Shown here: positions 1,382 to 6,539 of the stretch, one piece after another | Numbering within the stretch: the first letter of the stretch is position 1 | Layout of the letters: each line of letters opens with the position of its first letter | Source of the DNA: an uncultured Rhodospirillales bacterium | GTDB taxonomy: Bacteria > Pseudomonadota > Alphaproteobacteria > Acetobacterales > Acetobacteraceae | Length of the DNA: 41,821 nt | Direction of reading: 5' to 3' | Assembly (NCBI GenBank): GCA_903893975.1 | Contig: CAITOL010000102.1 | Location: 1 to 41,821 of the forward strand | The notes under the pieces: generated by a model | What the model saw: only the letters and a program-made list of their open reading frames with translations | Database searches by the model: none | What the model was told of the DNA's origin: nothing | Position numbers and translations under genes: made by a program

Positions 1382-3025
1382 TCACCGAGCCTCCGGCTCC
1401 AAAACCGCATACCCAATACTAGCCAGATGCGAATTCACCAGTTTCAGGTCATGCATCAACCCCAGGAACTGCCGGCTCGCCTGCTGCGCCTCCGCATCCC
1501 GGCCCAAGCGGCTGAGATGCGCCCGCACCGCCGCGCGCTCGGCCTCGTTCAGCACCCGCTTGGCGTCGCGCAGTTCGGCGCCGGAGCGTGCGTCCTCGGT
1601 CAGCATCGTAGACATTGCCAGCCGCAGATCCGCCGCCACCCCGGCAAGCAGGCTGCGTAACGCCTCCTGGTCCACCGGCGCGAACGCCTCCTGATCGCGC
1701 CCGGCAATCCGGCCGATGCGCTTGTCCAGCAGCAAGCCGGCCTGGCCGACATTGACCGCGAATTCCAGCAGGTCGGACAGCCGCAGCGCATCCCGCCCGG
1801 TCAGTTCCGCCCGATCCAGCCGCGACAGATACTGCTTCACCGCCGCATGCAGCCGGTCCAACTCCCGCCCCAGCCGGGTCGCCTGCTCGGCCAGCGCCTT
1901 GTCCCGCTTGCGCAGCGCCTGCGGCAGCATTTGCAGCAGCGCGTCCACCAGATCGCCCATGCGCAGAATTTCCCGCGCCGCGTTGGACAGCGCCAGATAC
2001 GGCGTCTCCAGCGCCCCGGCGTCCAGAAACAACGGCCGCCCCACATCGGTGCTCGCGGACGGCGGCGGCGGGAACATCCGGCTCAACACCGTGCTGGCAT
2101 TGCGCAACCAGCCGACGCAGGCCAGCGCCAGCACCACGTTGAACAGCAGATGGAAGCTGGTCACCGCCACCCGCGGATCGCCCAGCCAGTGCCACCACGC
2201 ACCGGCCAGCGGGCGCAAAAACGGCAGCGCCACCAGGCACCCGGCCGCCCGGAACAGCAGATTGCCCACCGGCACCCGCCGATTGGCCGGGTTGGTGCTG
2301 TCACTCTCCAGCACCGGCGGCAGCGCCCCGCCCAGATTGGCCCCCAGCACCATCGCCAGCGCCGCCACCGGGCTCAACCCGCCGCTCGCCGCCACGCTGG
2401 CCACCAGCAGCACCGCGGCGACCGAGGAATGCGCGATATAGGTCACCACCGCCGCAATCAGCACATCCAGCAGCGGGTCATCGGTCAGCGCCTCCAGCGC
2501 ACTGCGCAGCAGCGGATCGGCATTCAGCAACCCCAGCAGCCCATCCGCCGCCGGCGCCGCCGCCGGTTGCAGCGCCCCGGTCATGTCATGCAGCGCCAGC
2601 AGCATCAGCCCCAGCCCGATGCCCACCCGGCCCAACTGCCGATACCGCCCCTTCGGCGCCCGACGGAACGTGACGTAACCCGCCAGCAGCAACAACGGCG
2701 CCAGCCAGGACACATCGAACGATAAAATCTGCACAATCAACGCCGTGCCGACATTTGCTCCCAGCATCACCGCCAAAGCCGGCACCAGATCCAGCACCCC
2801 GCGCGCGGCGAAGGTCGTCACCATCATCGCCGTCGCCGTGCTGGATTGCAGCAGCATGGTCACGCCCGCCCCGGCGCCGACCGCCACTACGCGGTTGCGC
2901 AACGCCTGCCCCAGCAGCCGACGCAAATCAGACCCGAAGGCCCGCTCCACACCGCTCTGCACCGTCCGCGTGCCCCATAGCAGCAGCACCACATGCCCGG
3001 CGAGCGCGAGCGCGGTCAGCAGCAC
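1382..3025 (-). CDS. Na/Pi cotransporter family protein with C-terminal PhoU-like domain
   Basis: A 547-residue inner-membrane protein of the NptA/YjbB type. The N-terminal half is hydrophobic with the two inverted Na_Pi_cotrans repeats and their signatures: MLLQSSTATAMM near residue 60 and IAHSSVAAVLLVAS near residue 200. The C-terminal part (from about residue 330) is a charged helical region like the PhoU-type tails of this family. Members move inorganic phosphate with sodium; E. coli YjbB is reported to export phosphate. The GTG start at 3025 overlaps the decarboxylase stop (3016) and has AGGA 9 nt upstream, so it is the last gene of an operon with the decarboxylase and the Nramp-related gene. 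The open frame upstream of 3025 is the decarboxylase coding region read out of frame. Confidence 0.85.
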   Translation of the reverse strand: MLLTALALAGHVVLLLWGTRTVQSGVERAFGSDLRRLLGQALRNRVVAVGAGAGVTMLLQSSTATAMMVTTFAARGVLDLVPALAVMLGANVGTALIVQILSFDVSWLAPLLLLAGYVTFRRAPKGRYRQLGRVGIGLGLMLLALHDMTGALQPAAAPAADGLLGLLNADPLLRSALEALTDDPLLDVLIAAVVTYIAHSSVAAVLLVASVAASGGLSPVAALAMVLGANLGGALPPVLESDSTNPANRRVPVGNLLFRAAGCLVALPFLRPLAGAWWHWLGDPRVAVTSFHLLFNVVLALACVGWLRNASTVLSRMFPPPPSASTDVGRPLFLDAGALETPYLALSNAAREILRMGDLVDALLQMLPQALRKRDKALAEQATRLGRELDRLHAAVKQYLSRLDRAELTGRDALRLSDLLEFAVNVGQAGLLLDKRIGRIAGRDQEAFAPVDQEALRSLLAGVAADLRLAMSTMLTEDARSGAELRDAKRVLNEAERAAVRAHLSRLGRDAEAQQASRQFLGLMHDLKLVNSHLASIGYAVLEPEAR

Positions 3026-4431
3026 GCAACCGCATCCTGCATGGTCTGCCACACCGCCGCGATATCCGCCGCCTCGGTCGGCAGCGCCCCGATGGACACG
3101 CGCACCATCCACCGCCCATCCAACACCGCCGGCGTCAGATACGCCGCACCGGACTGGTTGATCGCCTCCGCCCATTTTTGCGTGAACGCATCCAGCGCCG
3201 CCCCCGTCAGCCCCGCCGGCTCATAGCGCACGCACACCGTTTGCAGGCTGACCGGCGCCAGCACCCGCCAACCCGGCGTCGCCGCCACCATCGCCGCCAG
3301 GCGCTGCGCATGCGCCAGATCGCGCCGCAGCCGGGCCTGCAACGCCGCCACCCCCTGCTCGCGCAGCACAAACCACAGCTTCAGCGCCCGAAACCGCCGG
3401 CCGAGCGGAATGCCCCAGTCGCGCAAATTCTTCACCTGCCCATCGACCGACGATTGCAGGTAAGACGGGTTGGTAGACATCACCCGCACCAGATGCTCGG
3501 GGTCGCGCACATAATACAGCGAGCAGTCAAACGGCACGCCCAGCCATTTATGCAGGTTGATCACCAGGCTATCCGCGCCCTCGATCCCCTCCCACATCCA
3601 GCGGCATTCCGGCAAAATCATCGCCGAGCCGGCCATCGCCGCATCCACATGCAGCCAGATATCATGCGCGCGGGCGATTTTGGCGATCGCCCCCACCGGA
3701 TCAATCGCCGTCGTCGCCGTCGTGCCGGTGGTCGCCACAATGGCGCAGGGCCGATGCCCGGCCGCGATATCCGCGGCCACCATCGCCGCCAGCGCCTCCG
3801 GCCGCAGCCGATACGCGGCGTCGCACGGCACCAGCCGCACATTGTCCCGCCCGAACCCGGCCAGCAACGCGCCCTTCTCCACCGAGCTATGGCTGTGCTC
3901 GCCCACATACACCAGCAGCCGTGGCCCGCCGCCCTGCAACCCGCCTTTGGTCAGCGCGTAGCCCGATGCCCGCTCCCGCGCCGAAATCAGCGCAATCAGC
4001 GCCGAGGTCGATGCGGTGTCCTGGATCACCCCGCTCCACCCCGCATCCAGGCCGCAGATCTGCCGCATCCAGTCGGTGACCACCTCTTCCAGCTCGGTCA
4101 CCGCCGGGCCGGACTGCCACGACAGGCCCAACACCCCCAACCCGGTACTCACCAGATCGCCCAGCACCCCCGCCGGCTGCGCATTGGCCGGGAAATAGCC
4201 AAAAAACCGCGGATGCTGCCACAGCGACAGGCCGGGCATGATCACCCGGTCCAGATCCGCCATCACCGCCGCGAACGGCTCCGGCTGCTGCGGCGGCGCC
4301 TTGGGCAGCGCATCGCGCACCGCCCCCGGCTGCGTCGTCGCCTGCACCGGCCGCGCCGCGATCCCCTGCTGATAATCCGCCAGCCAGTCGATCAACTGGT
4401 GGCCGGCCTGGCGAAATTCCTCCGGGGTCAT
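3016..4431 (-). CDS. PLP-dependent aromatic-L-amino-acid decarboxylase-like protein
   Basis: A 471-residue group II decarboxylase, close to the about 480 residues of DOPA/aromatic amino acid decarboxylases. It carries HSSVEKGALLAG (His181, cofactor-stacking), LHVDAAMAGSA (Asp263, cofactor ring nitrogen) and NLHKWLG, whose Lys295 should bind pyridoxal phosphate. The likely reaction is conversion of tyrosine, DOPA, phenylalanine or tryptophan to the amine plus CO2 in the cytoplasm; the substrate is not decided by these motifs. The start at 4431 has AGGA 9 nt upstream and lies 7 bp after the transporter stop; its own stop overlaps the GTG of the Na/Pi gene. Amine production could serve acid resistance or metabolite synthesis (inference). 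Confidence 0.86.
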   Translation of the reverse strand: MTPEEFRQAGHQLIDWLADYQQGIAARPVQATTQPGAVRDALPKAPPQQPEPFAAVMADLDRVIMPGLSLWQHPRFFGYFPANAQPAGVLGDLVSTGLGVLGLSWQSGPAVTELEEVVTDWMRQICGLDAGWSGVIQDTASTSALIALISARERASGYALTKGGLQGGGPRLLVYVGEHSHSSVEKGALLAGFGRDNVRLVPCDAAYRLRPEALAAMVAADIAAGHRPCAIVATTGTTATTAIDPVGAIAKIARAHDIWLHVDAAMAGSAMILPECRWMWEGIEGADSLVINLHKWLGVPFDCSLYYVRDPEHLVRVMSTNPSYLQSSVDGQVKNLRDWGIPLGRRFRALKLWFVLREQGVAALQARLRRDLAHAQRLAAMVAATPGWRVLAPVSLQTVCVRYEPAGLTGAALDAFTQKWAEAINQSGAAYLTPAVLDGRWMVRVSIGALPTEAADIAAVWQTMQDAVACC

Positions 4432-4438
4432 GCGCGTC

Positions 4439-6082: not shown

Positions 6083-6408
6083 CTTCCGTCTCCAACCGCA
6101 CCGGCCACGCCGGGCCGGTCCTCTGCGGGGCAGCCTGCCGCCAAGCGGCAACCGACCGGGCGCGCAACCGCGACCGGTCAGCCCCTAGACGGGGGCCGGG
6201 CGCCGTAGCGGCGGGAAAACGGCAGAAAAGCAAACTGGGCCATCACGGCATCCTCTGGCTCGATCAATCACGAGCCCGGTGCCGTCTCAGCCCCAGGACC
6301 TACCGCCGATGGCGGAACATCCCGTGGTCCTGAAGGCGGCCCGAGCGAAGATCCAACCCAACAGTCACAACATCCAACGGACGTCGACTGTCGCAATCCG
6401 TGGGTTGG
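6083..6408 (-). promoter_or_regulatory. Highly structured 5' leader of the Nramp-related gene (riboswitch candidate)
   Basis: Seven perfect hairpins occur in the leader. In transcript order: (1) outer stem 6408-6401/6360-6353 CCAACCCA, 9-nt bulge, ACAGTC/GACTGT, inner ACGTCC/GGATGT; (2) CAGGACC/GGTCCTG at 6332-6294 with inner CCGCC-ATC-GGCGG; (3) ACGGCA/TGCCGT at 6285-6245 with inner GGCTCG/CGAGCC; (4) 6196-6181; (5) 6179-6154; (6) 6150-6136; (7) ACCGGCC/GGCCGGT at 6119-6100, just before the ribosome site. Hairpins 2 and 3 abut. The inner stem of hairpin 1 uses a G-U pair that becomes an A-C mismatch on the plus strand, favouring a minus-strand RNA. The conserved bases of yybP-ykoY, M-box, cobalamin and TPP riboswitches were not found. 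Function is inferred from position only. Confidence 0.5.
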
Positions 6409-6539
6409 GAGGGGGTAGATCGCGGGTTCATGGCGCTCCAAGGGGAAACACAAACAGCAAAGGCGCCACCCATCCGGATGACGCCTTGGCGATAGACCCG
6501 TACGGGGCCTGGGATCAAGAGGCGTTTTCGTCAGGTTTC
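6409..6539 (-). other. Intergenic region after the ankyrin gene, with possible terminator-like palindromes
   Basis: This gene-free stretch joins the ankyrin gene to the transporter leader. It contains ACGCCT (6481-6486) facing AGGCGT (6520-6525), with a perfect CCCGTACGGG palindrome (6497-6506) inside, starting 14 nt past the ankyrin stop. No U-run follows on the minus strand, so termination is uncertain. A promoter for the leader would be expected here but none is convincing by eye. Confidence 0.35.

Follow-up and report, generated by a model that had tools for sequence, protein, structure and literature searches.

A conserved leader with a probable upstream ORF and covarying helices precedes Nramp-type transporter genes: a likely translational switch common in one bacterial family

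The stretch of DNA analysed here (41,821 nucleotides, referred to as the window) carries a real, conserved leader in front of an Nramp-type transporter gene, which is unmatched to any catalogued RNA and is most likely a translated RNA switch preceding transporters of this type. The reading we prefer, with a probability of roughly 60%, is a translational switch controlled by a leader ORF, similar in kind to mgtQ of Salmonella and built on the translation of a short upstream ORF (uORF1). The same nucleotides carry both a conserved peptide and a covarying fold of the RNA. For a transporter family whose substrate (Mg2+ or Mn2+) varies by member, the leader is an additional control element, one that is common within a single bacterial family. 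The features are collected in Table 1, where hairpins 1 to 7 are numbered as in a first-pass annotation of this DNA that had drawn seven stem–loops upstream of the gene.

Table 1. Positions of the leader, its parts and the transporter gene in the window. SD, Shine–Dalgarno sequence.
Feature	Position	Strand	Remark
uORF1 SD, GGAG	6436-6439	-	AGGGATCAC-type in many relatives
uORF1, 43 aa, MNPRSTPSQPTDCDSRRPLDVVTVGLDLRSGRLQDHGMFRHRR	6300-6431	-	N-terminal ~16 residues conserved
P1 5' strand, CCAACCC	6402-6408	-	Outer stem of hairpin 1; pairing covariation p 0.003
P1 3' strand, GGGTTGG	6353-6359	-	73/103 cells paired in held-out leaders
P2 apical hairpin, UCGAC-loop-GUUGG in the window's MFE register	6374-6387	-	p 0.001 in relatives
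P3 5' strand, GCTCGGG (anti-anti-SD), uORF1 codons about 29-32	6340-6346	-	p 0.001
Hairpin 2, CAGGACC 6332-6326/GGTCCTG 6300-6294	6294-6332	-	Distal extension of P3 in the window
P3 3' strand, ACCGGGC, also in the SD hairpin	6274-6280	-	Window pairs 6/7, one G-U
SD-sequestering hairpin (hairpin 3)	6245-6285	-	z -3.9
ORF2 SD (AGAGGA), inside the hairpin	6251-6256	-	GGAGG-type in most aligned relatives
ORF2, 21 aa, MAQFAFLPFSRRYGARPPSRG	6178-6243	-	Longer in most relatives
Hairpins 4-7	6083-6177	-	Not conserved; no clear excess over chance
SD of the Nramp-type gene (GGAG)	6090-6093	-	From the sequence
Nramp-type transporter, 547 aa	4439-6082	-	PF01566, E 7.4e-81

The leader is common in the window's family and rare elsewhere. 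A 74-nt sequence model was built from 13 leaders, matches at E < 1e-7 were taken as strong, and the family, class, order and phylum searches were run with Infernal's stricter filters. Strong copies numbered 47, spread over 45 of the 200 family genomes searched, and an Nramp-type gene comes next in 43 of the 47; among nine further copies read from the order search the figure is 8/9. Queried with the protein, 36 of the same 200 genomes gave an orthologue at 60% identity or above, accompanied by the leader in 35, the exception (G096) covering residues 211–545 of the orthologue alone, with the upstream part off the contig. Within the genus (five genomes including the window's own), two genomes have the transporter and the same two have the leader. 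Some distant Nramp-type genes (36–46% identity) carry the leader as well (L106, L118, L125, L126, L129–L132 and L135), and among the family matches listed, 68 of 78 Nramp-type places below 60% identity have no adjoining leader match, the other ten having one at E ≤ 1.5e-4 (nine places) or 0.002 (one place). Searching 80 named orthologues gave 11 strong leader matches, one of them from a Dyella, and three weak ones.

Outside the family, six genomes, one of them with a weak hit, were found in the class sample, where 8/385 genomes matched at E ≤ 1e-3 and two of these belong to the window's family. Eight class-sample loci were read, one genome being represented twice and the window's own copy being left out: an Nramp gene comes next in five, L142 and L147 end soon past the hairpin, and L146, a weak match without an ATG, has none. 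In the order sample 35/299 genomes matched at E ≤ 1e-5, all labelled as the window's family, and in the phylum sample 3/398 did so at the same threshold, two within the family and one outside. The leader model matches just one copy in the window's own genome, the one in the window; three more Nramp-family genes are present in that genome (C126, C75 and C87; loci L001, L002 and L004).

Comparison of the leader with 80 orthologous loci placed the start of similarity at 6433. The first-pass annotation had bounded the element at 6083–6408, which does contain the hairpins, but the conserved element begins further upstream, with the SD and ATG of uORF1 at 6439–6431. For a closer comparison we used 54 leaders, drawn from 65 motif-bearing loci after omission of seven duplicates (L021, L046, L051, L079, L084, L091 and L105), three weak loci (L018, L024 and L058) and L133, which has a 34-aa uORF1 and for which the script detected no next start. 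All 54 possess a uORF1 of 38–46 codons that starts with ATG and has an SD core of 3 nt (AGG, GGA or GAG) at most 14 nt 5' of it, and the other two frames are interrupted by stops in 54/54 and 50/54. The peptide consensus is MNPRSSSQPTESHSRR..., and codon counts were made over 52 leaders, excluding the window and L006 with one inserted codon each. Codon 11 encodes Glu or Asp in 52/52; codon 15 encodes Arg in 44/52 by means of CGG, AGG, AGA, CGT or CGA, and its third base pairs within P2 (column 60 of alignment A2). Two codons are retained at the nucleotide level, CGA at codon 4 (48/52) and AGT at codon 14 (51/52). Where codons 2–16 differ, the mean BLOSUM score in frame is 1.24 with 32% synonymous changes, against −1.28 with 7% and 0.68 with 28% in the two shifted frames; the values of the second shifted frame make the in-frame test, taken alone, a modest one. 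On these sequence features uORF1 is probably translated. The uORF1 and ORF2 products that were tried, four of them from ORF2, matched no Pfam or NCBIfam family at E ≤ 1.

Folded RNA coincides with this ORF. Since relatedness inflates permutation tests, columns were simulated 1000 times on a tree inferred with FastTree from the alignment itself, and P1, P2, P3 and the inner stem of the SD hairpin covary beyond this phylogeny-aware null (pairing covariation p 0.003, 0.001, 0.001 and 0.003, respectively), with the caveat that the tree derives from the alignment under test and that P3 had been suggested by these very sequences. The covariation upstream of orthologues that the first-pass annotation had named as a check was thereby found for these four helices and not for P0 (p 0.59) or the outer stem of the SD hairpin (p 0.53), which are unsupported under the same null. 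All 24 slid controls gave p ≥ 0.05 on the pairing measure. On the plain G measure the four helices reached p ≤ 0.007, but six slid controls also fell below 0.05 (P1 at −1, +1 and +2; SD inner stem at +2; SD outer stem at +1 and +2), so that the pairing measure alone is specific. An all-against-all phylogenetic pair scan returned no pair at E < 0.05, the best being a P2 pair at E 0.25, and RNAalifold on MAFFT alignments recovered P2 alone in A2 and nothing in A3.

P2 forms the tip of P1, and the window breaks two of the five P2 pairs in the alignment register. A scan of A2 for column helices (four pairs, over 80% paired, with double changes) returned nine registers, eight of them within P1 or P2. 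For P0, P1 and P2 together, 85.7% of cells are paired as opposed to 79.7 ± 0.6% in shuffles (0/500), with a covariation score of 0.268 against 0.174 when shuffled and 0.065–0.140 when slid. P3, the long-range helix, is paired in 360 of 378 cells over the 54 leaders, while permuted partners reached at most 93.4% (0/2000) and slid ones at most 67%; its double changes include GCTCGGG/CCCGAGC, GCTCAGG/CCTGAGC, GCCTGGG/CCCAGGT and CCGCGGG/CCCGCGC, and its own duplexes are more stable than crossed ones (−29.4 vs −24.8, 0/2000 permutations, relatedness ignored). The 3' arm of hairpin 2 starts with the final nucleotide of the uORF1 stop codon. In 15 held-out leaders, some of which are closely related to aligned leaders (L189 to L137, L186 to L125) so that the set is not fully independent, paired cells amounted to 42/45 for P0, 73/103 for P1, 70/75 for P2 and 96/105 for P3. 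The mean folding z is −2.8 over uORF1 nucleotides 16–90 (39/54 leaders below −2) and −2.9 from the uORF1 stop to the next start (42/53 below −2).

The 3' strand of P3 is shared with the SD-sequestering hairpin. Both structures use 6280–6274 and therefore compete and exclude each other. In the window the hairpin has an outer stem, ACGGCA 6285–6280/TGCCGT 6250–6245, and an inner one, GGCTCG 6276–6271/CGAGCC 6262–6257. Across the leaders, own anti-SD:SD duplexes are more stable than crossed ones (−18.0 vs −15.6, 0/2000 permutations), a test that ignores relatedness and is the sole backing for the outer stem. What the hairpin gates varies. In 35 of the 54 leaders it is a small ORF2, separated by a gap from the Nramp gene downstream; ORF2 adjoins or overlaps the Nramp start in eight; the Nramp gene itself stands in the place of ORF2 and is gated directly in seven, L006 being of this type; and four have no Nramp gene after the leader. 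In the window, ORF2 encodes just 21 aa and the Nramp gene is preceded by a separate SD. ORF2 encodes a small protein of 40–110 aa in 41 of the 54 leaders, with the C-terminal consensus W..D..GRL.C.W. Four loci (L136, L137, L109 and L119) keep uORF1, the hairpin and the second small ORF with no Nramp gene next.

The stems of the first-pass annotation are present in the sequence, as seen in an arm listing and the MFE fold: the outer stem of hairpin 1 (arms 6353–6360/6401–6408), hairpin 2 (6294–6300/6326–6332), hairpin 3 (6285–6245, found in the minus-strand MFE fold) and further arms at 6154–6164/6169–6179, 6136–6141/6145–6150 and 6100–6106/6113–6119. Its picture of a structured leader before an Nramp-type gene is supported, and the leader proves to be conserved and tied to genes of this type. 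Its picture of seven hairpins forming a single device has to be narrowed to hairpins 1 and 3 and, via P3, the base of hairpin 2; a plain untranslated aptamer is not supported, as hairpin 1 lies inside the conserved uORF1 and hairpin 2 at its end; and the last stem, suggested as a gate on the Nramp ribosome site, is not conserved, the conserved gate being hairpin 3. The minus-strand leader folds better than its shuffles (z −3.17, 1/100 equally good) and so does the plus strand (z −4.68, 0/100), so the strand is given not by folding but by uORF1 and its SD. The excess lies in hairpin 1 (6350–6412, z −4.2) and hairpin 3 (6243–6287, z −3.9). Hairpins 4–7 were considered as parts of the switch and rejected: jointly (6083–6240) they reach z −1.6 (p 0.06), and the stretch is absent from L006, the other congener with the transporter. 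An interspersed repeat at 6087–6137 was likewise set aside, with one other similar place in the window's own genome (52 nt at 79%).

Just 5' of uORF1, at 6460–6487 on the minus strand, the window has a strong stem–loop (z −3.8) whose tail is rich in T; it would either terminate the upstream gene or belong to the leader as a 5' hairpin. The corresponding region in relatives has no clearly conserved structure (mean z −0.98, 10/54 below −2; control stretch −0.32, 4/54). In a promoter search the best sites cluster about 90 nt upstream of the uORF1 ATG (21/54), with scores barely above those of shuffles (7.24 vs 6.98).

An upstream ORF combined with alternative helices is the general architecture of attenuators, and the leader has a conserved short ORF, with its SD, ahead of the transporter gene, and mutually exclusive helices, one of which encloses the downstream SD. 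As we envisage the switch, uORF1 would be translated while its RNA folds as P1/P2 and the long-range P3, the latter made with sequence adjoining the anti-SD. Once formed, P3 would occupy the anti-SD region and leave the SD of ORF2 or the Nramp gene free (ON); a ribosome on the last third of uORF1 would prevent P3, allowing the anti-SD to capture the SD during transcription (OFF). Smooth translation of uORF1 would then repress the transporter, and pausing or abortion early in uORF1, within the conserved peptide, or a lack of translation would induce it. Translation of uORF1 and kinetic switching are what we infer for this model, together with a direction of control and a metal signal (Mg2+ or Mn2+) that are both read from the neighbouring gene.

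In nascent RNA ending after P3, the mean probability of P3 is 0.83 without a ribosome (above 0.5 in 47/54 leaders), 0.77–0.86 with a ribosome at codons 3–24, 0.00–0.01 at codons 27–33 and 0.19–0.32 from codon 36 to the stop. The position of the ribosome in uORF1 could thus set which hairpin forms first. The equilibrium scan of the complete leader with ribosome masks, on the other hand, gave no switching: the SD is on average 23–29% unpaired at all positions and 25.5% in the free leader (in the window about 56% at equilibrium). The SD hairpin wins at equilibrium wherever the ribosome sits, so a switch would have to be kinetic. Kinetic control occurs in other attenuators.

More tentatively, the leader may represent a new class of dual RNA and peptide metal sensor, in which the cell would read its Mg2+ or Mn2+ level by way of a ribosome crossing an aptamer in the N-terminal part of uORF1. 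That part of uORF1 might then serve both as a nascent-peptide or translation sensor and as a folded RNA with conserved internal loops; if so, several subfamilies of Nramp-type transporters within a single bacterial family would share such a sensor.

Among the alternatives to the translational switch, a riboswitch aptamer that binds a metal or other ligand (P1/P2 with the conserved GCGATCTAGCAGC, CGGAG and ACAGT segments) and senses the metal directly, translation of uORF1 being secondary, is a doubtful one. Several segments are retained at the nucleotide level, the CGA and AGT codons above among them, and GCCCGGG is off frame from the ATG, so that the second half of uORF1 is out of frame with the motif, in 8/54 leaders by alignment column, the window included, or in 10/54 counting L109 and L137, which are aligned one base off. 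In those leaders it is the RNA, not the C-terminal peptide, that is conserved. The constancy of ATG, SD core and ORF length in 54/54 and the synonymous Arg codons at codon 15 speak for a translated ORF instead, and known riboswitch classes give no match, with which a new class would still be compatible.

We regard it as unlikely that the leader peptide senses a translation signal other than a metal, such as amino acid or tRNA supply, a polyamine or an antibiotic. The attenuator architecture is general enough to serve such a signal, the CGA and AGT codons are conserved in a peptide rich in Ser, Arg and Pro, and a gene for a PLP-dependent decarboxylase lies 3' of the window's Nramp gene; the neighbour, however, is of Nramp type in 43/47 copies and comes from several subfamilies (36–85% identity to the window's).

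That uORF1 and ORF2 encode functional small proteins, with the RNA structure merely tuning their synthesis, seems quite improbable. The C-terminal consensus shared by the 41 ORF2 products and the persistence of ORF2 in four leaders without an Nramp gene next are what one would expect of such proteins; a uORF1 whose second half goes off frame in 8–10/54 leaders while P3 persists is not, nor is an ORF2 that is replaced by the Nramp gene in 7/54 and has just 21 aa in the window. Chance folding of GC-rich intergenic sequence would suit hairpins 4–7, but is scarcely credible for hairpins 1 and 3 and P3 given conservation over many genera, covariation and the agreement of held-out leaders.

The nearest solved chain to the window transporter is 7qia (E 1.5e-49; runner-up 1.2e-20), labelled 'Divalent metal cation transporter' in the structure match, which we take to be EleNRMT. 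On this sequence match, EleNRMT would be the closest solved relative. In the excerpted text of PMC8806188 the binding-site motif of the NRMT clade is given as DxxG-TxxA/T. The window's segments aligned with those of 7qia are NDAGA and GTTVAPW, with methionine absent; TxxA is matched (TTVA), and the first segment has Ala where 7qia has Gly. Both Mg2+ and Mn2+ behaviours are reported in this group, one member being likely a manganese transporter (PMC4072509, in excerpt), and the window transporter may carry either Mg2+ or Mn2+. Downstream of the Nramp gene lie genes for the PLP-dependent decarboxylase (3016–4434) and a Na/Pi-cotransporter (1382–3175), both on the minus strand. By eye, L118 too has an ORF similar to the Na/Pi gene 3' of its Nramp gene, and L006 has one similar to the decarboxylase gene 5' of uORF1.

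Comparison with known RNA elements began with Rfam. The window gave no match at the gathering level, and the leader at E ≤ 10 and 20 relatives at E ≤ 1 gave a few implausible sub-threshold matches. M-box, yybP-ykoY and other Rfam classes were rejected as candidates, the matches at E 0.7–5 being eukaryotic, viral, CRISPR-repeat and PrrB/RsmZ models far below gathering; the first-pass view that neither M-box nor yybP-ykoY is present agrees with this covariance search, which found nothing credible. Among the matches listed from the open-licence literature (titles and abstract openings), we did not find this leader described. The yybP-ykoY Mn2+ riboswitch controls Mn2+ homeostasis genes (PMC6754395, in excerpt), and unlike it the window leader has no Rfam match. 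As described in the excerpt of PMC4072509, the M-box riboswitch precedes nrmT genes, mostly in Clostridia and Deltaproteobacteria; that arrangement resembles ours in placing a structured leader before an Nramp-related transporter gene, whereas here the M-box does not match and a conserved ORF spans the first hairpin. The mycobacterial M-box controls a conserved small uORF and, as proposed for the leader reported here, forms a translational platform gating a small ORF ahead of an operon (PMC12810186, in excerpt). Sensing in that system falls to the M-box aptamer; in our case no known aptamer was found, and an ORF makes up the candidate sensor region.

The closest mechanism among the papers covered is that of Salmonella mgtQ, a likeness of architecture drawn from the excerpted text of PMC8092293. 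There, mgtQ is a uORF in the mgtC–mgtB intergenic region that controls mgtB at translation, with stems 1:2, 2:3 and 3:4 around the small ORF hiding or freeing the mgtB ribosome site. Both systems would thus place a small ORF over alternative stems, one of which occludes the ribosome site of a transporter gene while its rival frees it. Situated within an operon, mgtQ encodes eight amino acids and acts on the Mg2+ transporter MgtB (PMC8092293, in excerpt), whereas uORF1 has 38–46 codons, contains a covarying hairpin of its own and precedes an Nramp-type gene, usually with a second small ORF in between.
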